Below, piece by piece: positions 7,355-44,995 of a stretch of 47,286 nucleotides of DNA. The stretch is from Bryobacterales bacterium. Lineage in GTDB: Bacteria; Acidobacteriota; Terriglobia; Bryobacterales; Bryobacteraceae. The stretch is from contig PLOR01000033.1 in assembly GCA_003142185.1 (NCBI GenBank), forward strand, positions 1 through 47,286. Direction: 5' to 3'. The notes below the pieces were generated by a model. It was given only the letters and a program-made list of their open reading frames with translations, was not told the origin of the DNA and did not search any database. The first letter of the stretch is position 1, and every line of letters starts with the position of its first letter. The position numbers and the translations under genes were made by a program.

Positions 7355-7963
7355 ATGCAGGACGCAGCCGGAACGGCCGGAGCCCGGGTGAATTCCGAGA
7401 TGGATTCGCTGGTTCGGGCAGCGCAGCGCGGGGACCAGGACGCTTTCGAGCAACTGGTTCGCGCCTACGACCAGAGTGTGCTCCGGCTCGCCATGAACCT
7501 GTTGCGGTCGCCCGAAGACGCGCGCGACGTGTATCAGGAGGCGTTCCTGCGGGTATACCGGAACCTGCACACGTTTCGGTTCGACTGCAGCTTCCACACC
7601 TGGCTGTACCGCATCGTGACGAACATTTGCCTGGACCAGTTGCGCAAGCGGAAGGTGCGGAAAGAGGAACCGGCGGTGGTGGAAACCTCGGAAGGCGCGA
7701 TTGACCGGACCGAGGGGTTTGAGGAAGTATCGGCGGCGGCGAATCCGGAGCGCGTGACGTGGAACCGGCAGTTAGGGCAACGGATCGGCGACGCGCTGGA
7801 GGAACTGACACCGCGCGAGCGGATGGTTTTTGAGCTGCGCCATTACCAGGGTTTGCGATTGCGCAATATCGGCGAGATTCTGGGTACCAGCGAGGAAGCG
7901 GCGAAAAACTGCTTCTTCCGCGCCACGCAGAAGATGCGCACGATGTTGGGAGACTTAGTATGA
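7355..7963 (+). CDS. ECF-family RNA polymerase sigma factor, pair 2
   Basis: A 202-residue ECF sigma factor. Region 2 includes FEQLVRAYDQSVLRLAMNLL, DVYQEAFLRVYRNLHTF and FHTWLYRIVTNICLDQLRKR. Region 4 includes LTPRERMVFELRHYQGLRLR followed by IGEILGTSEEAAKNCFFRAT. The GAIDRTEGFEEVSA linker between them is acidic. An internal ATG at residue 16 (MDSLVRAAQRGD, position 7400) is a possible alternative start and is closer to the usual family beginning. The gene overlaps its anti-sigma partner by four bases (ATGA), a classic coupling arrangement. It is the first gene of a plus-strand operon reaching 11134. Confidence 0.92.
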   Translation: MQDAAGTAGARVNSEMDSLVRAAQRGDQDAFEQLVRAYDQSVLRLAMNLLRSPEDARDVYQEAFLRVYRNLHTFRFDCSFHTWLYRIVTNICLDQLRKRKVRKEEPAVVETSEGAIDRTEGFEEVSAAANPERVTWNRQLGQRIGDALEELTPRERMVFELRHYQGLRLRNIGEILGTSEEAAKNCFFRATQKMRTMLGDLV

Positions 7964-8880
7964 CTTGCGATGCGGTGCGGAAGCTGATTCCGCTGTATTA
8001 CTACGGCGAGTTGACGCCGGAGGAAGAAGACCAGGCCGAGGCGCACATCCACGAGTGCGGCGCATGCGCGCGCCAGATGGAAGCGGCGCGGGCGCTGGCG
8101 GCGGCGCTGGACCGGCGCCGGATGGAAGCGCCGGCTTCCCTGCTGGCCGATTGCCGGACGGATCTCGCGGCGGCGGTGCGCGGCGCGCCGGCGGAACCGG
8201 CGTGGAGGCTGTGGCTGGGGGCGGCGGGCGCGACGCTGGCCGGCTTCACCCGCTGGCGGCAGCCGCTGGGCGCAGTGGCGCTGATCGCGATTGGCTTCTT
8301 CGCCGCCAGGCTGGTTCCGGCACCGGCGGGCTCCCAAGTTTCCACGGCCTCCTTGGCCCCATCGGAGGGAGTGTTCGTCAATGTGCGATCGGCGCAGCCG
8401 GACAGCTCCGGCCGGGTACGGATCGCCTACGACGAAACCAGGCGGCGCGAGATCTCCGGAGCCATCGACAACCCGGAGATTCAGAAGCTGGTGTTGGCGG
8501 GGGCGCACGAAGAGGACGATCCGGGAGTGCGGGTGGAATCGGTCGGCCTGCTCAAGGACCGCGCCGGCTCGGGCGAAGTGCGCGAGGCGCTGATGAACGC
8601 GCTGCTGCACGATACCAACCCCGGCGTGCGGCTGAAGGCGCTGGAAGGCTTGAAACCGCTCGCAGCGGAACCGCCGGTGCGCGGAGCGCTATCCCAGGCG
8701 CTGCAGTTCGACGACAATGACGCGGTGCGCATGCAGGCGGTGGACCTGCTGACGTTGCGCCGCGACGAGGCCATGGTGGGCGTGCTGCAGAATCTGGTGC
8801 AGAAGGAAGACAACAGCTACGTGCGTTCGAAGTGCACCAAGGCTCTGAAGGAAATGAATGCGTCGATCGGCACTTTCTGA
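7960..8880 (+). CDS. Zinc-finger anti-sigma factor with C-terminal HEAT-like repeats
   Basis: A 306-residue candidate inhibitor of the preceding sigma factor. The N-terminus has a ZAS motif, H29-x3-C33-x2-C36, in the cytoplasmic part. A single membrane segment (LGAVALIAIGFFAARLV, about residues 103-120) follows. Past the membrane, from about 180 to 300, are three or four alpha-helical HEAT-like units (DPGVRVESVGLLKD, NPGVRLKALEGLK, NDAVRMQAVDLLT, NSYVRSKCTKALKE). In other proteins such repeats serve as protein-binding scaffolds. Here they would face the periplasm and might sense envelope proteins, which is inference. The start overlaps the sigma stop by four bases. Confidence 0.88.
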   Translation: MTCDAVRKLIPLYYYGELTPEEEDQAEAHIHECGACARQMEAARALAAALDRRRMEAPASLLADCRTDLAAAVRGAPAEPAWRLWLGAAGATLAGFTRWRQPLGAVALIAIGFFAARLVPAPAGSQVSTASLAPSEGVFVNVRSAQPDSSGRVRIAYDETRRREISGAIDNPEIQKLVLAGAHEEDDPGVRVESVGLLKDRAGSGEVREALMNALLHDTNPGVRLKALEGLKPLAAEPPVRGALSQALQFDDNDAVRMQAVDLLTLRRDEAMVGVLQNLVQKEDNSYVRSKCTKALKEMNASIGTF

Positions 8881-20966: not shown

Positions 20967-22688
20967 ATGTCTCTCTCGATCCAAACCAACACCGATTCTC
21001 TTATTGCGCAGGAAAACCTGCTCACCAACAGCATCTTCCAGAGCAACACCATCCAGCAGTTGACGTCCGGCTATCGCATCAATACGGCCGGCGACGACCC
21101 GGCGGGTCTGGCGGTTGCCAACCAGTATGCGAGCGCGATTTCCGAGCTCACGCAAGGTTACGCGAACGGCAACGATGCTACCGCCCAGTTGCAGATCATG
21201 GACGGCGGCATGAGCAACATCAGCCAGATCGTCAACACGCTGCAAACCCTGGCCACGGAATCGGCCTCGGGCAGCTTCACCGGTAATCGCAACACGTTGA
21301 ACCTCCAGTTCCAGAATGACTTGGGCGAAATCGACCGCCAGGCGCAGTCGATCGGCCTGAATACCGGCGGCACGTTCGCCAAGCTGATGAGCGTGTACTT
21401 CGGCGCCGGCACCGGCAGCCAGAGCACCGCCAACGGCATCGTGAACATCAATTTGAGCAACGCAACCGTGGATACGCAGAGCCTAGGACTGGCGGGCGTG
21501 CAGGCGGTCAACACGGTCGCCAACGTAGGCAATGACTACGACCTGGGCGCTTCCAGCGCGAACAGCGTGAACGCCATTGCCACCAACGCGGCCAACATAG
21601 CTGCAATACCCACAGGCGACACCTCTTTCACCTTCACCGGCCCGGGATTCGGCGACGTCGGCGGTACCCAGAACGGCGTGACAATTAAGGTCAATATGAG
21701 CGGCGTGGATGATACGGCCAGCCTGGTGCAGGCCGTCAACGCTGCCATTCAATCCGCCGACACCACTGCCGGCGCCAGCAACGGTGCCTTCGCGGCGGCC
21801 AACGTCACGGCTTCCATCCACACCGATTCCGCCGGCAAAGAGCAGCTTTCCTTCAACTCCAGCAACACCGCTTTCCAGGTCACCGCCGATGACCTCATGT
21901 CCAACGCCCTGATCGGGAACTTCAACGGCTCACCGCAAGGGAATATTGCGGGGAGCACGGGAAGCAGCCTGATCGCGGGAGGGGCCTACATGCTGGCAAC
22001 GAAGGCCAGCCCGAACACCGAAAACGACCTGGGGTTCGTTCCCATTACGGCCGCCAGCGGCGAGACCCAGGCGATTACGCTTTCCGCCAACGATGCTTCC
22101 GGCGCGGCTCACACCCTGACGGTGACGTTAAACGACAGCACCACCGGCGACTCCATAACGGACGCGCTCAACACGATTAACAACGCCCTGCAGAATTCCG
22201 ACGACTCGACCCTGAAACAGATCACGGCCGTCCAGAACCCCGCCGGCACGGCGCTGAATTTCGTCAGCACGATTCCTGGCTTCCAGATCTCGCTCGGCAC
22301 CACGACGGATAATACGGGTCTGGGAACGGCCCTCCAACAAGGCACCACCCTCACTGCGCTCCAGGTCGGCACCGGTGGCACGGCCGACATCAGCACCATG
22401 GCCGGCGCACAGGCAGCCGTCACCGCCATCACTAGCGCCGTCTCTTTGCTCGGCACCGCGCAAGCCGCGGTCGGCACTGGCGAAGATCAGCTCGGCTTCG
22501 CCGCCAGCCTGGCGCAATCGCAGATCACCAACTTCAGCTCCGCCGAATCGCAGATTCGCGATGCCGACGTGGCGCAGCAAGCGGCCAATTTGAGCAAAGC
22601 CCAGGTCCTGCAGCAGTCTTCGATTGCCGCCATGGCCCAGGCCAACGCCGAGCCGCAAGCGCTGCTCACCCTGTTGAAGGGCGCGTAG
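20967..22688 (+). CDS. fliC: Flagellin
   Basis: The flagellar filament subunit, 573 residues. The conserved N-terminal D0/D1 region (about 1-140) has MSLSIQTNTDSLIAQENL, TSGYRINTAGDDPAGLAVAN and MDGGMSNISQIVNTLQTLA. The conserved C-terminal D1/D0 region (about 490-573) has QITNFSSAESQIRDADVAQQ and ends in QALLTLLKGA. The 350-residue middle is a variable surface domain, rich in Ser, Thr, Asn and Ala, exposed on the filament. A good AAAGGA lies before the ATG. The region is preceded by csrA and followed by fliD, which is usual; most other flagellar genes are elsewhere. Confidence 0.95.
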   Translation: MSLSIQTNTDSLIAQENLLTNSIFQSNTIQQLTSGYRINTAGDDPAGLAVANQYASAISELTQGYANGNDATAQLQIMDGGMSNISQIVNTLQTLATESASGSFTGNRNTLNLQFQNDLGEIDRQAQSIGLNTGGTFAKLMSVYFGAGTGSQSTANGIVNINLSNATVDTQSLGLAGVQAVNTVANVGNDYDLGASSANSVNAIATNAANIAAIPTGDTSFTFTGPGFGDVGGTQNGVTIKVNMSGVDDTASLVQAVNAAIQSADTTAGASNGAFAAANVTASIHTDSAGKEQLSFNSSNTAFQVTADDLMSNALIGNFNGSPQGNIAGSTGSSLIAGGAYMLATKASPNTENDLGFVPITAASGETQAITLSANDASGAAHTLTVTLNDSTTGDSITDALNTINNALQNSDDSTLKQITAVQNPAGTALNFVSTIPGFQISLGTTTDNTGLGTALQQGTTLTALQVGTGGTADISTMAGAQAAVTAITSAVSLLGTAQAAVGTGEDQLGFAASLAQSQITNFSSAESQIRDADVAQQAANLSKAQVLQQSSIAAMAQANAEPQALLTLLKGA

Positions 22689-22778: not shown

Positions 22779-24245
22779 ATGAGCACCATCAGCAGCGCGT
22801 TGTCCACCATTCTCGATCCCGTCACGGTCGATGGATCCAACAGCTCCTCATCGAGCTCCGGCACCGGTTCCAGCGGCAGCGGCAGCACCGGCGGCACGAG
22901 CAGCAGTTCGGGAACGTTCACCGGCGCGAGCGACTATTCACAAGACCTGCAGGACGTGATTAGCCGGGCGGTGGCCATTGCCGAGTTGCCGGTCACCCAA
23001 CTGACCAATCAGGAATCCGTGCTGCAGAGCCAATCCACCGAGCTTTCCACTATCGCCAACGATCTGACCGCGCTGCAAACCGCCGTCGAGGGAGTTGGCA
23101 CGGCCATGAGCGGCTCGTACCAGGCCGAGGTTTCCAATCCCGACGTGGTCAGCGCCTCCGTCGGTGCCGGTGCTGTCGCGGGCACCTATTCGATTGAGGT
23201 GGATTCGGCGGGCGCTTACGCCTCCAGCTTGAGCGCCAGCACCTGGACCGGAACCAGCAGCGATCCGGGCGGAACCTACAGTCTCGTCATCGGCGGCACG
23301 CCGTACAGTATTCAGTCCACCGATGGCAGCGCCACCAGCGTCGTCGCGGCCATCAACCAGCAGTACGGCGACCAGGTGCAAGCTACGGTGGTAAACGTAG
23401 GGTCCGCTGCTAGTCCCGACCAGCGCATTTCCCTGCAAGCCATCACGCTCGGCGCGCAAACGCTCGATATCCAGGATTCCAGTGGCGACAGCCTGCAAAC
23501 CCAGGGTTCGGCCGGCAGCCTGGCGAGTTACATCGTCGACGGTTCCGGCAACACGGTCACCAGCGACTCGCCATCGGTGACCATCGCCACCGGCCTCACC
23601 GTCAATCTGCTGTCGGCCGATCCCGGCAATCCGGTGGCGGTGACGGTCAGCGGCACCGACGAAGCCCTCAGTAGCGCGCTCTCTTCTTTCACCTCGGCGT
23701 ATAACAAGGTGGTGACGGATGTGCAATCGCAGCGCGGCCAATCCGCCGGCCCCCTCCAGGGCAAGCCCATCCTCTCCGAGATCACCGAGGTGGTCGATAA
23801 CATGGCTACCTACTTCACATCGTCGGGGAGTGGAGTGAACGGTCTGGCGTCGCTGGGGCTCCAACTGGGCGAAAACGGCCAGTTGACGTTCAATTCCCAG
23901 ACACTGGATAGCGCCTATAGCAACAGCTCCGGCGCGGTCGCGTCGTTCCTCGGTTCAGCCACCGGCGGAGGGTGGCTCGCAAGCGCCACCAACGCGCTCA
24001 CCGACCTGGTAGACCCAAACGTGGGACTGGTGACGAACGAGGAAACCAGTCTGCAGAGGCAGACGACCTCCATCGCCAACCAGATTACGACCAAGAATGA
24101 CCAGATCACTACCCTGCAGAGCAACCTGACGCAGCAGATGGCGGCGGCCGATACGCTGATCTCGACGATCGAGCAGCAGGATACCTTTCTGACCCAGATG
24201 TTGCAGGCCGAGCAGATCGACACCCAATCGATCATAAATGAATGA
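22779..24245 (+). CDS. fliD: Flagellar hook-associated protein 2 (filament cap FliD)
   Basis: The filament cap that promotes flagellin polymerisation, 488 residues. Family features include TQLTNQESVLQSQSTELSTI near residues 75-95 and VSASVGAGAVAGTYSIEVD in the N-terminal D0-D1 part. The C-terminal part has NGLASLGLQLGENGQLTF and a closing coiled coil, NDQITTLQSNLTQQMAAAD, typical of FliD_C. Odd is a 30-residue Ser/Gly/Thr-rich insertion at about residues 19-49, between the N-terminal start and the first helix. The ribosome site is poor. It overlaps the next ORF by eight bases. Confidence 0.93.
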   Translation: MSTISSALSTILDPVTVDGSNSSSSSSGTGSSGSGSTGGTSSSSGTFTGASDYSQDLQDVISRAVAIAELPVTQLTNQESVLQSQSTELSTIANDLTALQTAVEGVGTAMSGSYQAEVSNPDVVSASVGAGAVAGTYSIEVDSAGAYASSLSASTWTGTSSDPGGTYSLVIGGTPYSIQSTDGSATSVVAAINQQYGDQVQATVVNVGSAASPDQRISLQAITLGAQTLDIQDSSGDSLQTQGSAGSLASYIVDGSGNTVTSDSPSVTIATGLTVNLLSADPGNPVAVTVSGTDEALSSALSSFTSAYNKVVTDVQSQRGQSAGPLQGKPILSEITEVVDNMATYFTSSGSGVNGLASLGLQLGENGQLTFNSQTLDSAYSNSSGAVASFLGSATGGGWLASATNALTDLVDPNVGLVTNEETSLQRQTTSIANQITTKNDQITTLQSNLTQQMAAADTLISTIEQQDTFLTQMLQAEQIDTQSIINE

Positions 24246-27498: not shown

Positions 27499-29211
27499 AT
27501 GCCCAAATCGAGTATCTTGGATCAGGACCCGTCTGCCGGTCCGGATTCTCAAATCAACAGCGAACCCGTCGAATCGTTTGCCGACATTCTTTCGCAGTAC
27601 GAGCAGACCAGCTCCCACGCCGGTGAGGAGCGCCGCGGGTTCAACGGCACGGTGGTGGCCGTGACGGCGGAGTCGGTCCTGGTGGATATCGGCTTCAAGA
27701 CGGAAGGCATCCTGCCGCTGGCGGACTTCACCAAAGCCGGAGAAACCGTGAAGCGGGGCGACAAGATCCCGGTTTCCATCAAGGGGCGCGATCCCGAAGG
27801 CTATTACGAACTGTCACGCATGAAGGTGGAGAGGCCGCGCGATTGGTCGGCGCTCGAGAAGGCGTTCGCCGATAAGGCGCCCATCGCCGGCGTGGTGACC
27901 GCGGTCGTCAAGGGCGGTTTGAGCGTGGACGTGGGCGTTCGCGCGTTCATGCCGGCCTCGCGTTCGGGCGCGCGAGAAGCGGCCGACGTGGAGAAACTGG
28001 TTGGGCAGGAGATCCGCTGCCGCATCATCAAACTGGATACGGCCGACGAAGACGTGGTGGTGGACCGCCGCGCCGTGCTGGAGGACGAGGAGCGCGAGGC
28101 TAAGGAAAAGCGCTACAGCCAGGTCAAAGAAGGCGAGACCGTAACCGGCACGGTGCGCAGCCTGACCGATTTTGGAGCGTTCGTCGATATCGGCGGCGTG
28201 GATGCGCTGCTGCATGTGGCGGATATTTCCTGGGGCCGCGTCAACAAGCCGGCCGACGTGCTGAAACCGGGCCAGGAAGTGGAAGCCAAAGTACTCAAGG
28301 TGGATGCCGCCAAGCGCCGCATCGCCATCGGCCTGAAACAGCTTCAGCCGCACCCGTGGGACCTCGTCGGCGAGAAGTACAAAGTCGGCGACCGGGTGCA
28401 GGGTACGGTCACGCGGCTGGCCGAATTCGGCGCGTTCGTCGAACTCGAGAAGGGCGTGGAAGGGCTGATCCACCTTTCCGAAATGTCGTGGTCGAAGAAG
28501 GTGCGCAAACCGGCCGATGCCGTCAAGGCCGGCGAGCAGGTGGAAGTGGCCGTGCTGGGCGTCAACCAGGCCGAGCGCCGAATTTCGCTGGGTCTCAAGC
28601 AGGTGCTGGGCGACCCGTGGGCTGAAGTGCCGCGCAAGTTTCCGGTGGATTCGCAGGTGGAAGGAATCGTCACCAGCCTGCAAAAGTTCGGCGCGTTCGT
28701 CGAACTCGCCGAGGGCGTGGAAGGCATGGTCCACGTGGGCGACATCAGCGCGGAGAAGCGCATCAACCATCCTCAGGAAGTGCTGAAGGTGGGGCAAACG
28801 GTGAAAGCGCTGGTGTTGGAGGCCGACGTCGCCAAGCGCCGGCTGCGGCTGGGCATGAAGCAGCTCGTTCCCACCGGCCTGGACGAATATATCGCCGAAC
28901 ACAAGGCCGGCGACGTGGTGACGGGGCGGATGACCGATGTTTCGGGCGGACGCGCGCGTGTCGAACTGGGCGAGGGGGTGCCGGCCACCTGCCGCATCCA
29001 GAGCGACCCGGCGGGCGGCGCCCAATCGGAACCGGCCAACGACAAGACGGACCTGTCTTCCTTGACGTCCATGCTGGAGGCCAAGTGGAAAAAAGGCGGG
29101 GCTTCCGCCGGCGCAACCAGGGACGAAGCTCCGCGCTCCGGCCAAATCCGCAGCTTCCGCATCGTGAAGCTGGATGCCGCACTAAAGCGAATTGAAGTGG
29201 AGCTGGCCTAG
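27499..29211 (+). CDS. rpsA: 30S ribosomal protein S1
   Basis: A 570-residue S1 protein that helps mRNA bind to the small subunit. Six S1-type OB folds can be traced: about 46-112, 130-195, 210-283, 297-372, 382-457 and 471-530. The third to fifth are the best conserved (SLTDFGAFVDIGGVDALLHV, RLAEFGAFVELEKGVEGLIH, SLQKFGAFVELAEGVEGMVH). The sixth is degenerate (GGRARVELGEGVPATCRI), followed by a linker and a short basic C-terminus. GAGGT lies about 15 bases before the ATG. Neighbours are unrelated; the usual cmk partner is not adjacent. Confidence 0.95.
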   Translation: MPKSSILDQDPSAGPDSQINSEPVESFADILSQYEQTSSHAGEERRGFNGTVVAVTAESVLVDIGFKTEGILPLADFTKAGETVKRGDKIPVSIKGRDPEGYYELSRMKVERPRDWSALEKAFADKAPIAGVVTAVVKGGLSVDVGVRAFMPASRSGAREAADVEKLVGQEIRCRIIKLDTADEDVVVDRRAVLEDEEREAKEKRYSQVKEGETVTGTVRSLTDFGAFVDIGGVDALLHVADISWGRVNKPADVLKPGQEVEAKVLKVDAAKRRIAIGLKQLQPHPWDLVGEKYKVGDRVQGTVTRLAEFGAFVELEKGVEGLIHLSEMSWSKKVRKPADAVKAGEQVEVAVLGVNQAERRISLGLKQVLGDPWAEVPRKFPVDSQVEGIVTSLQKFGAFVELAEGVEGMVHVGDISAEKRINHPQEVLKVGQTVKALVLEADVAKRRLRLGMKQLVPTGLDEYIAEHKAGDVVTGRMTDVSGGRARVELGEGVPATCRIQSDPAGGAQSEPANDKTDLSSLTSMLEAKWKKGGASAGATRDEAPRSGQIRSFRIVKLDAALKRIEVELA

Positions 29212-29306: not shown

Positions 29307-30557
29307 ATGCGTCGCGTGGCGATAACGGGAATTGGCGCGGTGAGCCCCAATGGAATCGGTCGTGAATCCTTTTGGCAGGCCAGCCGCAACGGTGTCAGCG
29401 GAGTGAGGCGCATCACGCGCTTCGACCCGACGCCGTTTCAGGTGCAAGTCGCCGGGCAAATACCCGACGAGTTCGACGAAACGCGTTATGTGGAGGTGAA
29501 GGACCGGCCCCACGTATCGCGCGCCGTGCCGCTCGCGATCGCCAGCGTGGGGGAAGCGCTGGAAGACGCCCACCTGGAGACGCAGCACATGACCCGCGAC
29601 GAACTGCGCGGCATCGGCGTCATGGTGGGCTCCGGCGGCGGTAGCCAGGATTTCAGCGAGGAGCAGTACCGGCTCTACTACACCGGCCACCAGAAGCAGT
29701 GCAGCGTGTATACGATTCCCACCGGCACCATCGGCACGCTGGCTAGCGAGGTATCGATGCGGTTCGGTTTCCGCGGCCTCAGCCACATCGTTTCCACCGG
29801 CTGCACGTCCTCCACCGACGCCATGGGTTACGCCTTCCGCCACATCCGCGGCGGGGTTCTCAATACCATCATCGCCGGTGGCGTGGATTCCCCGATTGCG
29901 CCGCTGATCCTGCGCGGGTTTCAGTTGATGCGCATCATGTCGACCCGCTGGAACCAGCAGCCGGAGCGCGCTTCACGGCCTTTTTCGCGCGACCGCGACG
30001 GGTTCGTCATCGCCGAAGGAGCGTGGTTCTTCGTTTTCGAGGAAATGGAGCAGGCGCGCGCCCGCGGCGCCAAGATCTACGGCGAAGTCACCGGCTACGG
30101 GTCCACCTGCGAGGCTTTCCATCGCGTGCGGCTGGAAGAGTGCGGCGAAGAGCCGGCGCGCGCCATCGGGCTGGCTCTGGAAGAATCCGGCATCGCCCCC
30201 TCCGACGTGCAGTACATCAATTATCACGGCACCTCCACCGAGCTGAACGACCGCATCGAAACGCGCGCCGTGAAACTGGCCTTCAACGGGCATGCTTACA
30301 AGCTCCCCGGGTCGTCGCTGAAGAGCCTCATCGGCCATCCGCAAGGAGCCTGCGGCGCAGCCGGCGTGGCGGCCACTCTGCTCGCCATGCGTGACGGCGT
30401 GGCGCCGCCCACCATCAACGTCGACGAACCCGATCCCGCTTGCGACCTCGACTACATCACCACTCCCGGCCGCAAAATCGCCATTGAGCACGCCGTGGCC
30501 AATTGCATCGCCTTCGGAAGCAAGAATTCCGCCATGGTGCTGCGCAAGGTCGAGTAG
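29307..30557 (+). CDS. Beta-ketoacyl-ACP synthase (FabF-like)
   Basis: Elongates acyl-ACP with malonyl-ACP, 416 residues, cytoplasmic. The thiolase-fold triad is complete: C166 in STGCTSSTDAMGY, H307 in NYHGTSTELND and H344 in SLIGHPQGACGAAG, with K339 nearby. The active-site context is GCTSS rather than the ACATS usual in FabF, and GHPQGA replaces GHLLGA. These features recall specialised KSII enzymes more than the housekeeping one. No acyl carrier protein, FabG or other fatty acid genes are next to it, so it could serve a lipid or polyketide side path. The start follows an AGGAAAGG at a long distance. Confidence 0.9.
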   Translation: MRRVAITGIGAVSPNGIGRESFWQASRNGVSGVRRITRFDPTPFQVQVAGQIPDEFDETRYVEVKDRPHVSRAVPLAIASVGEALEDAHLETQHMTRDELRGIGVMVGSGGGSQDFSEEQYRLYYTGHQKQCSVYTIPTGTIGTLASEVSMRFGFRGLSHIVSTGCTSSTDAMGYAFRHIRGGVLNTIIAGGVDSPIAPLILRGFQLMRIMSTRWNQQPERASRPFSRDRDGFVIAEGAWFFVFEEMEQARARGAKIYGEVTGYGSTCEAFHRVRLEECGEEPARAIGLALEESGIAPSDVQYINYHGTSTELNDRIETRAVKLAFNGHAYKLPGSSLKSLIGHPQGACGAAGVAATLLAMRDGVAPPTINVDEPDPACDLDYITTPGRKIAIEHAVANCIAFGSKNSAMVLRKVE

Positions 30558-31517: not shown

Positions 31518-31631
31518 ACGCGCTCATCGGAGCCGGCAGGCCGTATTTAGTGTATGCTTGCTAGAGGTCCTGAAGCGAAACAGTAATCCAGGCCGGTAAA
31601 TCTCTAATTGTACGAGCGAAGGGATTCGGGA

Positions 31632-32306
31632 ATGGTGACGCGAAAAATCTTGTTTCTTGGAATCTCGATGGCGCTTTGGGCGGCGTCCGCCAGCGCAGGG
31701 GGTATCGATCTCGTTGCCAACGGCGGATTCACTACCGGCGACTTCACAGGCTGGACCTCCTCATCCGACGAGAATTGGTACGTGAACGGGATCGACACCA
31801 ATCCGGGCGCACCTTCGGATACCAGTTACGCCGCCGAAAACGGATGCGTCGGCGCGTCTTGCAACGATCCCGTGAATGGGTCCTGGATTACCCAGTCTCT
31901 TGCCACCGAGGTTTCGCAAACCTACACGCTGACATTCTTCTTTGACCCCGGCGCGAGTAGCGAGGACGACGGAGGCGGTGGAATCGACGCGATTGCGGAC
32001 GCTTCGGTGATTACCACAACCGAACTGGATGTACTGTGGGACGGCAGTCTTGTGACCGGAGGTCAGATCGTCAATGCCACGTCTAGCACGTGGGAAGAAT
32101 ACACATTTACCGGTCTCACCGCCTCTACCACCTCGACGGTTTTGGAGTTCACCGGGCGCGAGGATCCGGACTACCTGCAGCTCACCGACATTTCGGTGAC
32201 TGCCGATGCAAGCCCAACGGTTCCCGAGCCGGCGTCGTTAACGCTGATCGGCGGCGGACTGCTGGGCATGATCTGCACTGTCCTGCGCCGCCGGCGCAAG
32301 GCCTGA
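31632..32306 (+). CDS. PEP-CTERM sorting domain protein, paralogue 2
   Basis: A 224-residue exported protein with the same plan: signal peptide (TRKILFLGISMALWAASASAG), IDLVANGGF, then YTLTFFFDPG, TTELDVLWDG and YTFTGLTASTTSTVLEFTG. The tail VPEPASLTLIGGGLLGM plus RRRRK is the exosortase signal. Comparison with the upstream paralogue gives about half identical residues, strongest in the last 90. An acidic Gly/Asp stretch (SSEDDGGGGIDAIAD) is unique to this copy. The start at 31632 is chosen as the first ATG; a TTG at 31608 also lies in frame. Confidence 0.88.
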   Translation: MVTRKILFLGISMALWAASASAGGIDLVANGGFTTGDFTGWTSSSDENWYVNGIDTNPGAPSDTSYAAENGCVGASCNDPVNGSWITQSLATEVSQTYTLTFFFDPGASSEDDGGGGIDAIADASVITTTELDVLWDGSLVTGGQIVNATSSTWEEYTFTGLTASTTSTVLEFTGREDPDYLQLTDISVTADASPTVPEPASLTLIGGGLLGMICTVLRRRRKA

Positions 32307-34919: not shown

Positions 34920-36593
34920 CTATTGCGCCAGCAGCGTCTGGCAGCGGCCGAGGCCGGCCTTCAAGTCCGCCACGGCGGCCAGCACTTGCGAGGGCAAATC
35001 GCCAGCCGCGTTTTGGCCGGGCGTGACTCCCAGCAGGACCGAGAGCAGCACTTCGAGGCGCCGCGAAGCGCGGAAGGTGTCTTCGGCTGCCTGCTGCCAT
35101 GCGGCATCGGCACCAGCCGCGGATGGAACCGTAGTGGCCTTGCCACCTACGCCGGCCAGCACCGGATCGAGCGCGCCTTCCATCACCCGCACCTGAGTTT
35201 CCAGCGCCGCCACGTGATCGCGCGCGAGCCGATGGAGTTGCGCGCGATCCGGCGCGGCCATGGATTGTTCGTTTGCCGCCGGGAAGCGCTCCGCCACGCT
35301 GCGCAGCGCGTAAGCGTGCGCCATGGCGGCTTCATTGCCGTCGAGCACGTGGGTGCTGAAGCGCTCGAAGGCCGCGCGCCCGCCGAGTTGCTTCTCGAGA
35401 CGCGTCTGAATGCCCACGTTGGCCGTATCGCCGCCTGTAGCCGGCGCATCCGCGGGCGGCATTATCAGAGCCGCTTCCGGCTGGGAGAAACGCACCTCCA
35501 CGTTGGCAGCTCCATCCAGCAGTTCGTGGACCTGCCGCTGGCGCTCGGGCGAAACCCCGGCGCCAGACACCAGCACTTTGCCATCGGTCAAATTGACTTC
35601 CACAGGATCGCCCAGGTCGGCCCCGATTCGGTGCAGCAGAGTAACCACCTGCAATTCATCCGAAATCGAGGCCGATAACCTGGGCGCAACTGCAGCCGGC
35701 CGGCTTGGTACGACTGGCCGCAAGGGAGCCTCGTGAGTAGTCGCAACGGGAGAACCGTCGGGTTGGAATGGAGGCTCCATAACCTGGATAAATTCAATCC
35801 AATTCTGATCGCGAAACTCGAATTTGCTTTCCACCGGCGCCAGGTCCGCGACGCGCAGCAGCAGCGTGACGGACGCCAATTCGCCTTCCGGCGCCTGGGT
35901 GCGGATCTGGTAGCACGGCTCGTGGGGATCTTCCGCGGCGGGCTCGGTCTTGACATCGTCCGTCTTGCGCGGCAGGCTGTCGCGCCACGCCTGGAAGGCG
36001 CGCGCGCTGAGCGGGTCCGCATCGTCGTAGTGGGCAGCCTGGAACGCCATCCGGATCTCGGGCGGCAGGGGCAGCCAATTTCCCGCGGCGCCGCCCACCG
36101 TGTGCAGCGTCGGCAAGCCCGAGCGCATGTGGATACCGATGGTGCGAACCGGCGCCGGGTGTGCGCTGGCCGCGGCCACGGCTTTTTCGAGCAAGGATGC
36201 CGCCTGCACGCTGGGTGTCCGGCCGAATTGCACGATGGCCACGATCAGCAGCGCGGCCGCGGCCACTGCCGCCACTCCCCACTGCCAGGCAGGGGCCAGG
36301 CGCGGCAAACGCTTCCAAAGTGGCGCCGCGGCAAGTTCCGCATCCACCCGGTCGAAACCGCGATCCAGCGTCTGCCAGGCGTTCGGCGCTTCCGGCAGAA
36401 GACCCGCCAGCACCTGCTTGCGGTAGCGGATGCATTCGGCCACCGTGGCTTCGAGCGATTCCATTTCCGCGCGGCACTGCCAGCAGGCTTCCAGGTGCTT
36501 GCGGACCTGCCGCGCTTTGCGCGCCGGCAACTCGCCATCGAGCGAGCGCAGCAGCAGGCCTTCCTCGGGATGTCCGGACGGCCAGTTACTCAT
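34920..36593 (-). CDS. Large zinc-finger anti-sigma factor
   Basis: A 557-residue membrane protein. The N-terminal ZAS motif is H33-x3-C37-x2-C40 (RKHLEACWQCRAEM). One membrane helix is at about 104-125 (WGVAAVAAAALLIVAIVQFG). The 430-residue outer part is unusually large for an anti-sigma factor, with FEFRDQNWIEF, VEVNLTDGKVLVSGAG and a helical C-terminal third (AADVA-type repeats). The VEVNLTDGKVLVSG stretch followed by ERQRQVHELLDGAANVEVRF recalls a BON-like fold, with low certainty. It overlaps its sigma gene by eight bases. Confidence 0.85.
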   Translation of the reverse strand: MSNWPSGHPEEGLLLRSLDGELPARKARQVRKHLEACWQCRAEMESLEATVAECIRYRKQVLAGLLPEAPNAWQTLDRGFDRVDAELAAAPLWKRLPRLAPAWQWGVAAVAAAALLIVAIVQFGRTPSVQAASLLEKAVAAASAHPAPVRTIGIHMRSGLPTLHTVGGAAGNWLPLPPEIRMAFQAAHYDDADPLSARAFQAWRDSLPRKTDDVKTEPAAEDPHEPCYQIRTQAPEGELASVTLLLRVADLAPVESKFEFRDQNWIEFIQVMEPPFQPDGSPVATTHEAPLRPVVPSRPAAVAPRLSASISDELQVVTLLHRIGADLGDPVEVNLTDGKVLVSGAGVSPERQRQVHELLDGAANVEVRFSQPEAALIMPPADAPATGGDTANVGIQTRLEKQLGGRAAFERFSTHVLDGNEAAMAHAYALRSVAERFPAANEQSMAAPDRAQLHRLARDHVAALETQVRVMEGALDPVLAGVGGKATTVPSAAGADAAWQQAAEDTFRASRRLEVLLSVLLGVTPGQNAAGDLPSQVLAAVADLKAGLGRCQTLLAQ

Positions 36594-37140
36594 CCCGCAC
36601 CTTCTTCAGCCGCTCCATGGCCCGGCGCAGAAATTCGCCGACCGCCGAAGGACTGATGCCCATCGCCGCCGCGATCTCCGGATACCGCAGTCCCTCCATG
36701 CGCAGGAACAGGCACCGTTTCTGTTGCTCCGACAGAGCCTCCACGGCGCGGTGAAAGAGCAGCATGCGCTCGCGTTCCAGCAGGTCGTGTTCCGCGTCGT
36801 GTGCCGGTGCAGCCAGCTTGGCCTCCATGTCCGCGTCGAACGGGTTTTCCGAGGCGTGGCGGGCGCGCACTTTCAAACCCCAGTTGTGTGCAACCCGAAA
36901 TATCCAGCCTCGCGGGTTTTCGATCTCTTCACCACCCTTGAGCGCGGCATAGAGGCGGAGGAAGACTTCCTGGGTGGCGTCCTGCGCCCGCGAGGGCGTC
37001 AAACCGAGCGTCATCAGGTACCGGTAGACATCCTCGCGCGACTCCTCAAATAATTGAGCCACTTGAGTTTGCAGTTCCGACGCAGCGCGTTCCTGACGCA
37101 AGATGCCCACCAATTCCTCACTCATGTAGAACGCGGCCAT
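36586..37140 (-). CDS. ECF-family RNA polymerase sigma factor, pair 3
   Basis: A 184-residue ECF sigma factor. Region 2 has EDVYRYLMTLGLTPSRAQ, DATQEVFLRLYAALKGG and NPRGWIFRVAHNWGLKV. Region 4 has LSEQQKRCLFLRMEGLRYPE and IAAAMGISPSAVGEFLRRAM. A second ATG five codons in (37125) is an alternative. The anti-sigma gene follows with an eight-base overlap, the tightest of the three pairs. It is divergent from a glycosyltransferase, and the 140-base gap holds a 10-base inverted repeat. Confidence 0.93.
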   Translation of the reverse strand: MAAFYMSEELVGILRQERAASELQTQVAQLFEESREDVYRYLMTLGLTPSRAQDATQEVFLRLYAALKGGEEIENPRGWIFRVAHNWGLKVRARHASENPFDADMEAKLAAPAHDAEHDLLERERMLLFHRAVEALSEQQKRCLFLRMEGLRYPEIAAAMGISPSAVGEFLRRAMERLKKVRDE

Positions 37141-39342: not shown

Positions 39343-39478
39343 CGTGGCGCGGGCTGAGTCCTCTCGGCTTTTCTTGCGACGCTGGGCTGTCCGGCTGCGC
39401 TCCGTAGGGGAAATGACTCTTCCGAAGAAGAGTCGAGATGACTCTACCGACTCATCAGGCTGGACAGCCCGCGCCACG
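39343..39478. repeat. Palindromic repeat, family E copy 3
   Basis: Arms cgtggcgcgggctg (39343-39356) and cagcccgcgccacg (39465-39478) with an inner hairpin gactcttc-cgaa-gaagagtc (39415-39434). It resembles the partial copy near 24556. It fills the gap between the divergent hypothetical and ATPase genes. Confidence 0.9.
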
Positions 39479-39515
39479 GGCGTTGCCCATTATCTAAAGG
39501 AAAGGCATTGCCGTC

Positions 39516-39527: not shown

Positions 39528-40715
39528 ATGCGCATCCTTCTGTTCAGCGGCAAGGGAGGCGTGGGAAAAACCAGCCTGGCGGCCGCCACCGGCCTCGAGC
39601 TTTCGCGCCTGGGCTATCGCACGCTGGTGATGAGCGTGGACCCGGCGCACAGCCTGGCCGACGCCTTCGACCTCGAGACGGACCTCTTCCACGGTAAGAC
39701 CGGCGACCCGTACCCCATCAGCGACCGCCTGGCGATTCACGAAGTCAACATCCAGAAGGAGATCAAGCGCCACTGGAAAGAGATTTCCTCGTACGTGGTT
39801 TCGGTGCTGCGCACCACCGGCATCAGCGACGTGGAGGCGGAAGAACTGGCCATCCTGCCGGGCATGGAAGAGCTGAGCGCGATGATGTGGGTGAACCAGT
39901 TTCGCCGCGAGCAGCTTTACGACGTGATTGTGCTCGACTGCGCGCCCACCGCCGAATCCATGCGTTTCGTCAGCATGCCCACCACGCTCGAATGGTATAT
40001 GAAGCACATCTTCCCGTTCCAGCGCGGCATCATCCGGGCGGTGCGCCCCATCGCCAATCGCGTCTCGCCAGTGGAACTGCCGACGGAGGGCTACTTCTCC
40101 AATATCCAGCAACTGTTCGCCAAGCTGGATGGCATCGCCGAGCTGCTGGAGGACCCGGCCCAGACCAGCGTGCGCCTGGTGACGAATCCCGAGCGCATGG
40201 TGCTGCGCGAGACCCAGCGCGCGTTCGTTTACTTTTCGCTGCACGGCCTGACGGTGGATAGCATTATCGTCAACCGCGTGCTGCCGCAGGCGGTGACCGA
40301 CGCGTGGTTCGAGGAGTGGCGTGCCTCGCAGGCGCGCGTGCTGGAGGAAATCGACGCCTATTTCGCGCCCGTCGAAGTGACGCGCGTACCGCTGTTCACC
40401 CACGAGGTTTTGGGCCGGGAGCGGCTGGAAGAACTGGCGCGCGCTCTCTACGCGGCGGGCGAGGACCCGGCGCGCGTCGTCCGTACCGAGGCGCCTTACA
40501 CGTTCACCAAGCAGGACGGCCACTACGAGGTGAAACTGCGGTTGCCTTTCGCCGCCAAGGGCGAAGTGGGATTATTTAAGAAGGGTGATGAGCTGGTGGT
40601 GGAGATCGGCACGCTGCGGCGGCACATCGGCCTGCCGACTTCCATGGCCGGCCTGTCGCCCGCTCGGGCCAGGCTGGAAAACCGTATTCTGACCGTGGAA
40701 ATGAAGGAGAGCTGA
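39528..40715 (+). CDS. ArsA/GET3-family ATPase with C-terminal Hsp20-like domain
   Basis: A 395-residue ATPase. The deviant Walker A GKGGVGKT is at 8-15, the MSVDPAHSLADAF switch at 35-47 and the second switch DCAPTAESMRF at 137-147. The only cysteine is in DCAPT, so it lacks both the ArsA metal-site cysteines and the GET3 CxxC zinc motif. From about residue 322 a beta-rich tail (YTFTKQDGHYEVKLRLPF, GDELVVEIGTLRRHIGLP) resembles the Hsp20-like domain found in some bacterial ArsA/GET3 homologues. A role in handling hydrophobic client proteins is more likely than arsenite export; this is inference. A 77-residue CxxC protein follows two bases downstream. Confidence 0.93.
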   Translation: MRILLFSGKGGVGKTSLAAATGLELSRLGYRTLVMSVDPAHSLADAFDLETDLFHGKTGDPYPISDRLAIHEVNIQKEIKRHWKEISSYVVSVLRTTGISDVEAEELAILPGMEELSAMMWVNQFRREQLYDVIVLDCAPTAESMRFVSMPTTLEWYMKHIFPFQRGIIRAVRPIANRVSPVELPTEGYFSNIQQLFAKLDGIAELLEDPAQTSVRLVTNPERMVLRETQRAFVYFSLHGLTVDSIIVNRVLPQAVTDAWFEEWRASQARVLEEIDAYFAPVEVTRVPLFTHEVLGRERLEELARALYAAGEDPARVVRTEAPYTFTKQDGHYEVKLRLPFAAKGEVGLFKKGDELVVEIGTLRRHIGLPTSMAGLSPARARLENRILTVEMKES

Positions 40716-40717
40716 AG

Positions 40718-40951
40718 ATGGCTGAAAGCAACAACCAAACCGCCGGCGAGGGCGCACAGGCCGCCGCTCACGGCTGCTTCGTATGCAACGTGGCGATGCC
40801 GTTCCTGGAACAATTGTGGCCGGCTGACGCGGGCGATCACTTCCGCGCCTCGCGGGTCGAGTTTCTGAAGGGCATCCGCAGCCTGATCGACGACCGCATT
40901 GCGCACCTGTCCAAGCAGGAACACAAAGGCACCCACGTCCCCGTGGAGTGA
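40718..40951 (+). CDS. Small CxxC protein coupled to the ArsA/GET3-like ATPase
   Basis: A 77-residue soluble protein I do not recognise. It has one CxxC (C20-F-V-C23) in HGCFVCNVAMPFLEQLWP, then an amphipathic helix (SRVEFLKGIRSLIDDRIAHL). The first 18 residues are a flexible Ala/Gly/Gln-rich arm. GGAG precedes the ATG, inside the ATPase gene; only two bases separate stop and start. The tight coupling suggests a physical partner, perhaps supplying a zinc site that the ATPase lacks; this is inference. Confidence 0.78.
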   Translation: MAESNNQTAGEGAQAAAHGCFVCNVAMPFLEQLWPADAGDHFRASRVEFLKGIRSLIDDRIAHLSKQEHKGTHVPVE

Positions 40952-41094
40952 GTGGGGCAGGTTCCCCGACCTGCCTAGCGTTTTGCCTAGCGTCGGCACT
41001 CGTGCCGACGCAGGGCCGGGCATGCCCGGCCCCTAGGAGGCCATTGTAGGGGCGAGGCACGCCTCGCCCCACACCGGCGGCATGACCGCCGGTG
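40952..41094. repeat. String of hairpins, families D-like and E-like
   Basis: After gtggggcaggttccccgacc (40952-40971) come four perfect stems in 105 bases: gcgtcggcac/gtgccgacgc (40990-41011), gggccgggc/gcccggccc (41013-41032), ggggcgaggc/gcctcgcccc (41049-41070) and caccggcgg/ccgccggtg (41072-41094). It lies between convergent genes and has no coding potential I trust. Confidence 0.9.
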
Positions 41095-41112
41095 CTGCGG
41101 CACGGCTTGTTC

Positions 41113-44100
41113 CTACTGCACCCACACCGTCACGCCGTTTTGGCTGATCTGCTTGCCCACTTGCACCGTGATCGGGATCGCACCGGCGCCCGTTGTCGGG
41201 GGCACCACTGCGTCCACCTGCAAGACGCCGGCTACCAAGCCCGGCGCTTCGCCGACGAAGGCGATCTGCGCAGGCTGATTGCCGATCAGTACCGAAACCG
41301 CGAGTTGCGGCACTGGCGTAATCGGACCCACCCCGCTGAGGTTTGCCGGAGTCACTGCCCCGGTGGCTTGGGCGGGAGTGGTCAGCCCTTCTCCGGTCAT
41401 GAAAATCTGAATAATGCTCCCCGGGGCCGCCGGGTTCGTCTGCGTGTTGACGGAGCTGTTGCCGTTGAGAATGGCGGCCGGACCGGTGCCGCTGGAATTA
41501 TAGGTGAAGAGCCCTGGGGCGGAGGTCGTGAGCTGCAGGCCGAAATCGTTGGATGTCTGCCCGGCGAACTTCACCTCCACGAACGGCTCCTTGTTCCCCG
41601 CGAACTCATACGGCACGACGGCGTTGATTTGGGTTGAGCTGACGTAGGTCAGAGGGGCCGGATAGCCGCTGAAGCTGACCGTAACGTTGCCGATCGAAGT
41701 GGAAACCTTGCCCGCCGAGGTAAGGGTCAGGGTGGCAGGGTTGGTGGGACCGATCGAGGTTCCGAAGATGGATACGATCTCACCTGGCGAAACCGGCCCG
41801 CTCGCGTAGCTGCCCGCGTTCAGCACCGCCGTGATGGTGGGCAGCGGAGCGGTCACGGTCAGCGTAACATTCACCGTCGTCGAGCCCTCGGTGCCGCTCA
41901 CCCCGGTGATCGTAATGGTGCCTGTGTAAGGCGTCGTGTTGGCCGCCAGGCCCGCCGGATTCACCTGCACCGTCAGGACCTCCGAGGTGGACGTGGTCCC
42001 GGAGGTCGGTGTTACCGAAAGCCAGTTGCCCGAACTGCTGGCGCTAGCCTGGAAACTGGATGCGCCACCGGTCGCGCTCACCGTCAATTGCCCCGGCGTC
42101 ACGCTGCCGCCGCTGCCGGCCTGGAAACTGAAACTGAGCGATGCGGGGCTCGCCGTGACCTCCGGTTGGCTCAACACGTCGAGGGTTACCTGCACTACGA
42201 CGGCGTTGCCGCCGGTCGGCGAGATCGTGATACTGCCGCTGTGATTCCCGGCGGTCAGGTTCGCCTGATTGACGGAGACGATCAAGTTGGCTTGCGTCGT
42301 CCCCGAGGTGGGGCTGACCGACAACCAACTGCCGTTGCTCGAGGCCGCCGCCGTGAATGACACGCTCGCGGCCCCGGCCGCGCTCGACACCGTTAGCGTC
42401 TGCGTTGCCGGCGCGGCGCCCCCGGACATCGCCGAGTAATTCAGCGTGGAAGCGCTCACCGTGACGTTGCCGCCGGATGTGCCGGTGGTGTTGACCACCA
42501 GGTTCACCGGCACAGTCACCGTCGAGCCGTTAGCGGTCAGACCGATGTCGCCGTTGTAAGTTCCCGCCGCCAGCCCGGACTGGTTCACCGACACCGACAG
42601 TACCTGGTTGGTGGCCAGGTTGCCGGTGGGCGTAATCGTAAGCCACGTGCCGCCGACCGGCGAAGACACGGAAACCGCCGTCGAAAACGCCGTACCAGTT
42701 GGACTCGAGCTTACCGTCAGCGACTGAGCGGTTGGCGCACCGCCCCCCAACTGCGCGGCGAAGGTCAGCGACGGCGAGCTGAGGGTCAAGCCGCTCGGAT
42801 TGATCGCCCCCGACACAACCAGAACCACGGGCACATAGAGCGGCTGCTCGCTTCCTCCCGTCACCGTAACGTTGCCCGAGTATAAACCGTTGGTCAGCGA
42901 GATCGAGTTGGCCGTCACCAAGATCGTGGCCGGAGTGGTGGTGACACTGCCTTGGATCGCCGCGGTCAGCCATGTTTGGTCGGTTGTCACGTTAACCGGC
43001 AGCGCCGTGCTGCCGCTGGCCGTAATCTGAATCGTGGCGCTCTGCGATGTCGCGCCGCTATTGAGAATCACCGTGTCTACGCTGCTCGATAGCACCTCGC
43101 CCGAAGTGACGACGAAATTCACTTGCAGCGGTGGAGGGTTCACCGGCACCCCGTTTGCCTCGATTGCCAACGACACGCTCGCGGTGTACGTCCCGGGCGC
43201 CAGATTCCTGGGATTGGCGGAGATCGTGACCGGCGTTCCCTGTGCGCTCATGTTGCCGCCGATTTGCCCTGTTTCCAACCACGCCACGCTCCCGCTGTTG
43301 GTGCTGTAAACCGGGGAATTCGCGATCGTGAAGCTGCCGGAGCCCGCAAACACGATCTGCTGCGCCACGCCGGCGCCTCCCGATTGCGCCACGAGGTTCA
43401 TCGTGGTCGGCGCCACGTACCCCGAACTAGTCCCGCCGGCGCCGCTGCCGGCCGTCAGGTTCACGGTCACCTGCTGGCTCACCGACCCCACCTGCACCGT
43501 GATGCTGCCGGTGAACGTTCCCGATCCGCTCAAGTTGGTGTTGGCGGTCACCGTCAAATAGGCCGATCCGCCAGCCACGATGCTGTTCGCGCTCGGCGCC
43601 ACGCCCAGCCAATTGACCGAGGGCGTCGCTGTGAACGCGCCTCCAGCGGTGCTCGTCACCGTCACCAACTGCTCGTAACTGTCCGCGGAATTCAGGCCGA
43701 TCGGATTGGGCGAAATCGTCACACCACCGGAGGTCGAGCCCGACACCGTCAGGGTGACGTTGAGGATGGCGGAGATGGTGGAATTGATGGCGTCGGTGAC
43801 GGTTATTTTTCCGGTGTAAGAGCCGACCGCCAGGTTGGTGTAGTTAACCACCGAAACCGACAACGCACTGCCGTTGACAAGACCGCTCGCGCTGGCGCCG
43901 TTATCCACCTGTAGCCAGTTGGTCGCCGTCGCCCCGCTCGGGTAGGAGACCACGGCCGAGTACGCGTCGCTATTCGGCGTGCCCAAGGTTACGTTTTGCG
44001 CGCTGGCGGGGGACAGGGTGCTATTTGAGTACGTCCAGGCCAGCGTACTGGGAGTGAAACTGACCCCGCTCGTGGTCACGTTGAACGTTACGTTAATGAT

Positions 44101-44874
44101 CACCGACTGGTTGCTGCCGTAGCTGATCGTCGCGGTCGTGTTATAGGGGCCTGCCGCAAGGCCCCCCGCGCTGGCGGTAAAGGTCAGCATCGCAGGTGTC
44201 GTGTTGGTCACCTGGTTCGTGGTCGACGAGACTGCCAGCCAGCTCGCCCCGGTGGACGTGGTGAAGCCGACCGCCGTCGAACTGGTTGTTTGCAGCTCCA
44301 CGGTCGTCGAGACAGAGGCGCCCACTGCCGCGGTTATGGAGTTGGTGCCGGTCAGGGTGGATGGGGTCGGCACCAGCGTCACACCGCTGCTGCCATTGGT
44401 GTTGTATTGGACCGTGAATGCTACCGCGCTCACCCCCGCGGGCTCAGTCGGAATCAGCGTCACCGACGCGCTATGAAGGCCCGGCACCAGCGCCTGGGCG
44501 GAACAGTTGAGCCCCAACGATAAACTGAGCGACGACGGCGGGATGGAGGTCTGGTATGTCCAGTTGCTTCCGCTTCCGCCGTTGCAGAGGCCGCCGGGGC
44601 CGGCGGTGGGGTCGCTACCCACGCCAAGCCAGGGCCGGTCGCCGGATGAGTAACCCACAGACACCGCGAAGGTGATCAACTGCGGGGGATTGCCTGAATC
44701 CTGGGATCCGGTTACGATTACCGAACCACCTTCATTGGTCACCGTGTAAACGGCACCGCCGCCCGGGCTCGTGAAAGTCGGCGCGGTGGCCTGCGCCAGC
44801 CGCGGCATCGCAGCCAGCAGGGCGAGGGAGAGAACGATTGCGGTCTTCTTGAATACGGCAAAAACGGCGTCCAT
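41113..44874 (-). CDS. Giant secreted BACON/Ig-like repeat protein with TIGR03437 C-terminal domain
   Basis: A 1253-residue exported protein. The signal peptide (FKKTAIVLSLALLAAMPRLAQA) is followed by about ten BACON-like beta-sandwich repeats of roughly 85-95 residues, recognisable by WLSVSPTSGTT, WLTITPTGNLAT and GNHSGSITISPTGG. BACON modules often bind glycans or mucin, or act as spacers; here the role is inferred. The last about 240 residues (ITAVLNAGSYASGPVSPGEI to the end) match the TIGR03437 domain described from Solibacter. That domain has PGEIVSIFGTSIGP, TQINAVVPYE and IQIFMTGEGLTTPA. AGGAGA precedes the ATG at 44874. The protein is Ser/Thr-rich and almost free of Lys and Cys. Confidence 0.92.
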   Translation of the reverse strand: MDAVFAVFKKTAIVLSLALLAAMPRLAQATAPTFTSPGGGAVYTVTNEGGSVIVTGSQDSGNPPQLITFAVSVGYSSGDRPWLGVGSDPTAGPGGLCNGGSGSNWTYQTSIPPSSLSLSLGLNCSAQALVPGLHSASVTLIPTEPAGVSAVAFTVQYNTNGSSGVTLVPTPSTLTGTNSITAAVGASVSTTVELQTTSSTAVGFTTSTGASWLAVSSTTNQVTNTTPAMLTFTASAGGLAAGPYNTTATISYGSNQSVIINVTFNVTTSGVSFTPSTLAWTYSNSTLSPASAQNVTLGTPNSDAYSAVVSYPSGATATNWLQVDNGASASGLVNGSALSVSVVNYTNLAVGSYTGKITVTDAINSTISAILNVTLTVSGSTSGGVTISPNPIGLNSADSYEQLVTVTSTAGGAFTATPSVNWLGVAPSANSIVAGGSAYLTVTANTNLSGSGTFTGSITVQVGSVSQQVTVNLTAGSGAGGTSSGYVAPTTMNLVAQSGGAGVAQQIVFAGSGSFTIANSPVYSTNSGSVAWLETGQIGGNMSAQGTPVTISANPRNLAPGTYTASVSLAIEANGVPVNPPPLQVNFVVTSGEVLSSSVDTVILNSGATSQSATIQITASGSTALPVNVTTDQTWLTAAIQGSVTTTPATILVTANSISLTNGLYSGNVTVTGGSEQPLYVPVVLVVSGAINPSGLTLSSPSLTFAAQLGGGAPTAQSLTVSSSPTGTAFSTAVSVSSPVGGTWLTITPTGNLATNQVLSVSVNQSGLAAGTYNGDIGLTANGSTVTVPVNLVVNTTGTSGGNVTVSASTLNYSAMSGGAAPATQTLTVSSAAGAASVSFTAAASSNGSWLSVSPTSGTTQANLIVSVNQANLTAGNHSGSITISPTGGNAVVVQVTLDVLSQPEVTASPASLSFSFQAGSGGSVTPGQLTVSATGGASSFQASASSSGNWLSVTPTSGTTSTSEVLTVQVNPAGLAANTTPYTGTITITGVSGTEGSTTVNVTLTVTAPLPTITAVLNAGSYASGPVSPGEIVSIFGTSIGPTNPATLTLTSAGKVSTSIGNVTVSFSGYPAPLTYVSSTQINAVVPYEFAGNKEPFVEVKFAGQTSNDFGLQLTTSAPGLFTYNSSGTGPAAILNGNSSVNTQTNPAAPGSIIQIFMTGEGLTTPAQATGAVTPANLSGVGPITPVPQLAVSVLIGNQPAQIAFVGEAPGLVAGVLQVDAVVPPTTGAGAIPITVQVGKQISQNGVTVWVQ

Positions 44875-44995
44875 GATGTCTCCTGCGAACCTTATCGAAA
44901 GCGTAAAGCACAAGTTGTGCTGAAACATACTACTTGCAAATCTCAAAATCCGGAACTATGGGGAAGGGACGGACGCGGCACTTATCATTGTACGT

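Follow-up and report, generated by a model that had tools for sequence, protein, structure and literature searches.

A small gene conserved beside an ArsA/Get3-type ATPase with an alpha-crystallin domain in Acidobacteriota

Introduction

In the window, by which we mean the whole stretch of DNA analysed (47,286 nucleotides, contig PLOR01000033.1 of a Bryobacterales bacterium), the gene for an ArsA/Get3-type ATPase is followed, 2 bases past its stop codon, by a small ORF. The question raised by this locus is whether the small protein is a partner of the ATPase or merely its neighbour and, if a partner, which of its features would serve that role. The initial annotation, made from the sequence alone, proposed a two-part targeting or chaperone system in which the small protein might be a detachable zinc clamp or a client adaptor. 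Here, the pair was followed through close relatives and across the phylum. The features of the locus are listed in Table 1; in what follows, loci are numbered with the prefix L and genomes with the prefix G.

Table 1. Features of the ATPase and small gene locus (positions in the window)
Feature	Position	Strand	Basis
395-aa ATPase of the ArsA/Get3 type, with an alpha-crystallin (HSP20-like) domain at the C-terminus	39528..40715	+	PF02374, PF17886, TIGR00345
P-loop GKGGVGKT, ATPase residues 8–15	39549..39572	+	Sequence
ArsA_HSP20 / alpha-crystallin domain	40515..40703	+	PF17886 residues 330–392; Foldseek of a relative's modelled domain; alignment
AAGGAG resembling a Shine-Dalgarno sequence, ahead of the small gene and at the end of the ATPase gene	40704..40709	+	Sequence
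77-aa partner protein	40718..40951	+	Conservation and pairing; no Pfam/NCBIfam match
CFVC motif, small-protein residues 20–23	40775..40786	+	Cys at 20 and 23
Conserved helix HFRASRVEFLKGIRSLIDDRIAHLSK	40838..40915	+	H41, E48, R54, D58 and I61 invariant in 54 rows; helix in a relative's model
C-terminal V-P-V-E, matching the [VIL]-x-[VIL] motif	40937..40948	+	54/54 relatives

The ATPase

The nucleotide motifs, Hsp20-like tail and single cysteine ascribed to the ATPase in the initial annotation were all recovered. A Pfam search placed PF02374 on residues 1–308 (E 5e-87) and PF17886 (ArsA_HSP20) on the C-terminal domain (E 2e-19), and TIGR00345 scored 229 bits, above the TRC40/GET3/ArsA subfamily cut-off of 135. 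The P-loop and switches are intact, with DPAHSL at residue 38 and DCAPT at residue 137. The sole cysteine is residue 138 and there is no CxxC. In the alignment the protein stops right past the last alpha-crystallin strand, with no tail of its own. As judged from these sequence features, the ATPase is Get3d-like, having an ArsA/Get3 domain and an alpha-crystallin domain and lacking the zinc CxxC. A search of its own genome gave no second match.

Other assignments were tried and rejected. With the NosAFP equivalog NF050088 the ATPase reached 138.7 bits, under the curated cut-off of 325. A zinc-holding Get3/TRC40 is not consistent with a protein that has one cysteine (residue 138) and no CxxC pair. 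The arsenite pump model TIGR04291 gave 83.4 bits against a cut-off of 650, and the one cysteine falls short of the metalloid cysteines that mark that pump.

Other features of the window were noted. A 1277-aa protein with BACON-type repeats is encoded on the minus strand (41113–44946) and terminates about 160 bases past the small gene, and GC-rich sequence with apparent inverted repeats, recognised by eye, lies on either side of the gene pair (39359–39480 and 40950–41100). Further away are a sigma-70-family factor in which only regions 2 and 4 were matched (36586–37140, minus strand), flagellin (20967–22688), FliD (22779–24245), an S1-domain protein (27499–29211), a ketoacyl synthase (29307–30557) and a PEP-CTERM protein (31608–32306).

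The small gene

The downstream ORF is as first described, a 77-residue protein with cysteines at 20 and 23. When 54 close relatives were aligned, H41, E48, R54, D58, I61, G71 and V76 were invariant. The gene is under purifying selection, with a dN/dS of 0.23–0.59 against 13 relatives, though synonymous sites are partly near saturation. The helix noted in the initial annotation is predicted in the model of a relative (L050): an AlphaFold model of a short read-through chain contained seven strands and a 31-residue helix, with block means up to pLDDT 95.

The protein belongs to no family that we could find. No Pfam or NCBIfam model matched the window copy (in Pfam, PF17230 included, none at E up to 1), eight relatives searched against Pfam and NCBIfam gave a best E of only 0.011, and two further relatives had no match in Pfam. 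A search of the PDB with the small-protein profile A1 had a best E of 0.94. There was no match to the small protein in plasmid sequences, and no confirmed relatives of either the ATPase or the small protein were found in viral contigs.

Pairing in Bryobacteraceae

A search with the ATPase yielded 40 loci, and four of these (L037, L065, L066 and L067), in which the sequence breaks off within the ATPase or right behind it, were dropped. Among the 36 readable close homologues, the small gene was found downstream in 34, by tblastn in 33 and by reading frames in L057; in six it stands behind an intervening gene. Neither tblastn nor inspection of reading frames found a small gene beside the ATPase at L028 and L058. 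In the reverse direction, a search with the small protein gave matches in 26 of 61 genomes (own included), and the ATPase was present at all 26 loci. The view of the two genes as a conserved pair was thus upheld, the small ORF being neither missing beside most close ATPase homologues nor unconserved in sequence. The ATPase gene and the small gene overlap by up to 8 bases or lie at most 3 bases apart in 41 of the 54 distinct rows.

Intervening genes were named by reading the sequence; a NagA-like gene lies between the two in L059–L064 (about 7165–8360) and an OsmC-like gene in L023. In L021 (1453–1719) the partner has a tandem-duplicated CYCAGVGPRLSA segment, and the match to the adjoining ATPase ends at residue 284.

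Absence was also shared. Among the negatives listed, 29 Bryobacteraceae genomes lacked a match to the small protein, and not one of them had the full ATPase; three of the 29 (G007, G017 and G022) are less than 90% complete. Six of them had ArsA matches (E 1e-10 to 1e-19), none of which extended into the HSP20 part. G001, from the same genus, has neither the ATPase nor the small protein.

Pairing across Acidobacteriota

The survey was extended to genomes of the Acidobacteriota, with two outside cases (Nonomuraea and Fusobacterium) coming from records filed as plasmids. Profile A1 found matches in 51 of 250 genomes from the class and in 14 of the 199 in the phylum sample. The ATPase was present at all 42 loci read from this profile (L069–L110), a count that includes the own locus and some repeat loci; class matches in G228, G148, G280 and G113 were left out of the ATPase check. 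Starting instead from PF17886 in the 199-genome phylum sample, we examined 24 loci that have a long ATPase frame, own included. A partner with helix and tail adjoins the ATPase in 19 of them. Profile A1 identified 14 of these partners, and the other five (L114, L117, L118, L119 and L124) were picked out by eye, in part through the tail. At L125 the ORF beside the ATPase has the helix without the tail motif, and at L129–L132 the stretches read beside the ATPase held no partner. The last three of these loci (L130–L132, in G401, G377 and G438) belong to one genus with several HSP20-tailed ATPase frames, none of those read having a partner beside it.

PF17886 matches occurred in 170 of the 199 phylum genomes, compared with the 14 matched by profile A1. 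The domain is therefore far more widespread than the partner, which tracks this ATPase and not HSP20 domains generally.

Weaker class matches to the small protein were examined in the same way. Of 17, 13 adjoin an ATPase and carry the tail; L174 adjoins an ATPase and is broken, and three are tailless and away from an ATPase. A second profile, A7, had matches with E no higher than 0.01 in 45 of 396 genomes, but as it was built partly from those genomes only the new A7 genomes are independent. New A7 loci beside an ATPase were L186, L188, L190, L194, L195, L200, L204, L208, L212 and L213, and the weakest A7 matches (G298, G358, G450, G497, G506, G579, G624 and G630) were left out. Weak helix-only relatives, tailless and away from an ATPase, were seen at L172 (the same site as L199), L175, L176 and L226 and possibly belong to another family.

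The partner persists beside ATPases of 37–56% identity, and in L111 and L113 the order is swapped, with the partner upstream. G576, G583 and G623 each carry the ATPase on one contig and a helix-plus-tail protein on another, with no partner adjoining those ATPases, which indicates that the link between the two does not depend on adjacency. The link is not strict: in G058 and G088 the ATPase relative has an identity of only 29%. Each gene was also found alone: L143 encodes an ATPase of 52% identity with no partner beside it, and G548, G633 and G466 have weak small-protein matches and no ATPase match. Such solitary occurrences, and the tendency of neighbouring genes to be kept together in a family, would be in keeping with an unrelated small gene held beside the ATPase by operon inertia. 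That explanation is rendered highly improbable by the joint absence from the 29 Bryobacteraceae genomes, among the negatives listed, and by a pairing that is kept at 37–56% ATPase identity, in swapped order and in unlinked genes. Mechanism aside, the small protein and the ATPase very probably form a dedicated partnership, and a two-part system made up of both is well supported.

Conservation of the tail and the helix

A constant feature of the small protein is found at its C-terminus. In the 54 close rows, [VIL]-x-[VIL] occurs in strict register, one residue from the end, in every case, compared with 32 of 949 background ORFs; with the acidic end included ([VIL]-x-[VIL]-[ED]) the count is again 54 of 54, compared with 11 of 949. 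The background ORFs are stop-to-stop frames of at least 200 residues from the loci and the window, and not called genes. In more remote partners the motif lies no more than three residues from the end in 37 of the 39 listed tails, against 138 of 1101 in the background, a remote count that is biased upward because five phylum partners were picked partly by the tail and both profiles contain it. L106 and L204 are the two that deviate. More generally, the rows are related and the tail was used by the profiles and by eye, so the tail counts are not independent trials.

The 39 remote tails include that of Nonomuraea and the unlinked L202 and L205, with same-genome repeats left out. The list is without L125 (no motif), L174 (broken), L200 (cut off) and the helix-only L172/L199, L175, L176 and L226. 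Loci that bear the motif and stand outside the count are L057, L188, L194, L195 and the class members L069–L098.

Both the helix and the tail are more widely kept than the cysteine pair, and the helix is the longest conserved stretch of the partner. This length, and the weak tailless helix relatives found away from an ATPase (L172/L199, L175, L176 and L226), would suit an adaptor whose amphipathic helix binds a membrane, ribosome or client, with the tail of minor importance for contact with the ATPase. We consider this unlikely, as the tail is conserved equally and is kept where the rest of the protein has diverged, and the helix-only matches, at 22 to 44 bits, possibly represent a separate family.

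On the ATPase side, V347, L349, A381 and L383, in what are presumed to be strands 4 and 8 of the alpha-crystallin domain, are hydrophobic in 37, 35, 37 and 36, respectively, of 37 aligned ATPases. The assignment of these strands in the window ATPase is our own, following the relative's model and known small heat-shock proteins. The IXI motif at the C-terminus of small heat-shock proteins binds the beta4–beta8 cleft of a neighbour (PMC4823740).

The cysteine pair

A cysteine pair is present in 50 of 54 distinct Bryobacteraceae partners (CxxC in 24 and CxC in 26) and four have neither form; L012 and L013 were scored as CxxC by pattern yet align with the CxC group. Among 14 remote A7 rows from outside the Bryobacteraceae, three have two cysteines within five residues and 11 have no pair. 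None of 37 aligned ATPases has a CxxC, regardless of the cysteine pair in the partner; the alignment took 37 of 39 sequences, L160 and L204 being left out.

These counts bear on the zinc clamp of the initial annotation, in which the cysteine pair of the partner would hold a Get3-type zinc and join or pivot the ATPase subunits. It draws on the pair retained in 50 of 54 close partners, on the cysteine pairs of some remote ones (CxxC in L110, CC in L107 and L108, C-x4-C in L117, L118 and L124) and on a cysteine cluster in the Nonomuraea DUF5304 protein described below. We regard it as distinctly improbable given the four close partners with neither CxxC nor CxC, the 11 of 14 remote rows without a pair and the 37 ATPases that lack CxxC whatever their partner carries. 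In addition, Get3d is without CxxC and the solved Get3d has no bound zinc and is closed without nucleotide, as stated in the Get3d paper (PMC10248533). What stood was therefore the retention of the cysteine pair in close relatives; a zinc clamp as the core function of the partner was weakened, and is possible only as a lineage-specific feature.

A possible mechanism

A reading to which we give slightly less than an even chance is that the small protein acts in trans as a tail-docked partner of the Get3d-like ATPase. The C-terminal [VIL]-x-[VIL] peptide of the partner would dock in the strand-4/strand-8 groove of the alpha-crystallin domain and so supply in trans the I-x-I tail that the domain lacks in cis. 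Once docked, the partner would hold its long amphipathic helix next to the ATPase, on or close to the face that corresponds to the Get4-binding face of eukaryotic Get3, where the helix may pass on hydrophobic clients or govern how the dimer opens. The client adaptor of the initial annotation may in this way form part of the present reading. The cysteine pair would be a redox or metal accessory, common in close relatives and dispensable in other lineages.

The models of L050 lend the docking step no help. The tail forms no strand in the short read-through model (last block pLDDT 70, pTM 0.47), nor in the full read-through model, which was poor (mean 64.9, residues 463–468 below 50). There are other explanations for a short hydrophobic ending, among them an ordinary strand, a signal for degradation and a contact within a homodimer.

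A small protein whose task is to cap or inhibit the ATPase, and which takes no part in client transfer, would be in keeping with the −8 to +3 base gap in 41 of 54 rows, which suggests balanced expression. It would also be in keeping with the position of the alpha-crystallin domain where yeast Get4 controls ATPase activity, as described in the Get3d paper (PMC10248533). Regulation and client transfer are indistinguishable from the present data, and we think a purely regulatory protein quite unlikely, a little more so than the helix adaptor. Tail docking, with client transfer or control of the dimer through the helix, is in our view the likeliest of these readings.

Relation to known systems

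The closest known relatives in architecture are the Get3d proteins (NosGet3d, 8egk/3igf, and Arabidopsis Get3d, 8elf), which likewise combine the ArsA fold and a C-terminal alpha-crystallin domain and have no CxxC. NosGet3d was the best structural match of the full read-through model; it was also nearest to the relative's modelled domain in Foldseek, followed closely by small heat-shock proteins and Arabidopsis Get3d. The ArsA arsenite pump ATPase has the fold in common, the window protein being a single ATPase half with one cysteine. The window ATPase keeps a region that can be aligned with archaeal Get3 over the stretch where the A-loop lies. NosGet3d and AtGet3d, by contrast, are without the A-loop (PMC10248533).

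Of the 199 Acidobacteriota genomes, at least 24 contain long ArsA_HSP20 ATPase frames; one such ATPase was found in an actinomycete, and two more were recognised by eye in Fusobacterium. This distribution is relevant to the suggestion that ATPases of this type are linked to photosynthesis. In Fusobacterium vincentii (L142, 2980–5345) the two ArsA ATPases are in tandem, both with HSP20-like ends by eye; no partner-like ORF was found among plus-strand frames of at least 60 residues or in two stretches read on both strands.

In the actinomycete, Nonomuraea, a DUF5304 (PF17230) protein is encoded downstream of an ArsA_HSP20 ATPase and has a helix-like stretch (HLMAAGGELFAAVKGALDA), the end EHIDLN and a cysteine cluster. 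It has no significant sequence link to the small protein; the helices align, with an hhalign probability of 6.5% and a P of 0.0057. A search with PF17230 matched none of 21 related genomes, and the control genomes gave no match either. At the level of sequence the resemblance is a lead and not homology. A wider scheme, tentative and in our estimate possible rather than probable, would have a split chaperone-targeting machine in which the ATPase provides the alpha-crystallin core and the partner provides the helix and the I-x-I tail and is the missing bacterial Get3d co-factor at the Get4 face, with DUF5304 as its actinobacterial counterpart.

Get4 and Get5 are larger than the partner protein and no relation to it was seen. 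Judging by the Get3d paper, the partner would act at the corresponding face of Get3 (PMC10248533). Searches of one open-access literature collection found no description of the partner protein; on ArsA_HSP20 or bacterial Get3 only that paper (PMC10248533) came up, and there was nothing on DUF5304 or on ArsA family ATPases together with Acidobacteria.

The passages on Get3d in that paper describe its alpha-crystallin domain as occupying the Get4 site, state that new partners would be needed, call the role of the domain unclear, and make no mention of a partner gene such as that of the window ATPase (PMC10248533). Both questions, that of the Get3d partner and that of the role of the alpha-crystallin domain, would become testable in bacteria through a conserved partner gene whose tail suits the domain. 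The tail likewise recalls the I-x-I extension of small heat-shock proteins in its hydrophobic-x-hydrophobic motif near the C-terminus and in having an alpha-crystallin domain as presumed receptor; unlike in those proteins, the motif in the window system sits on a separate protein.
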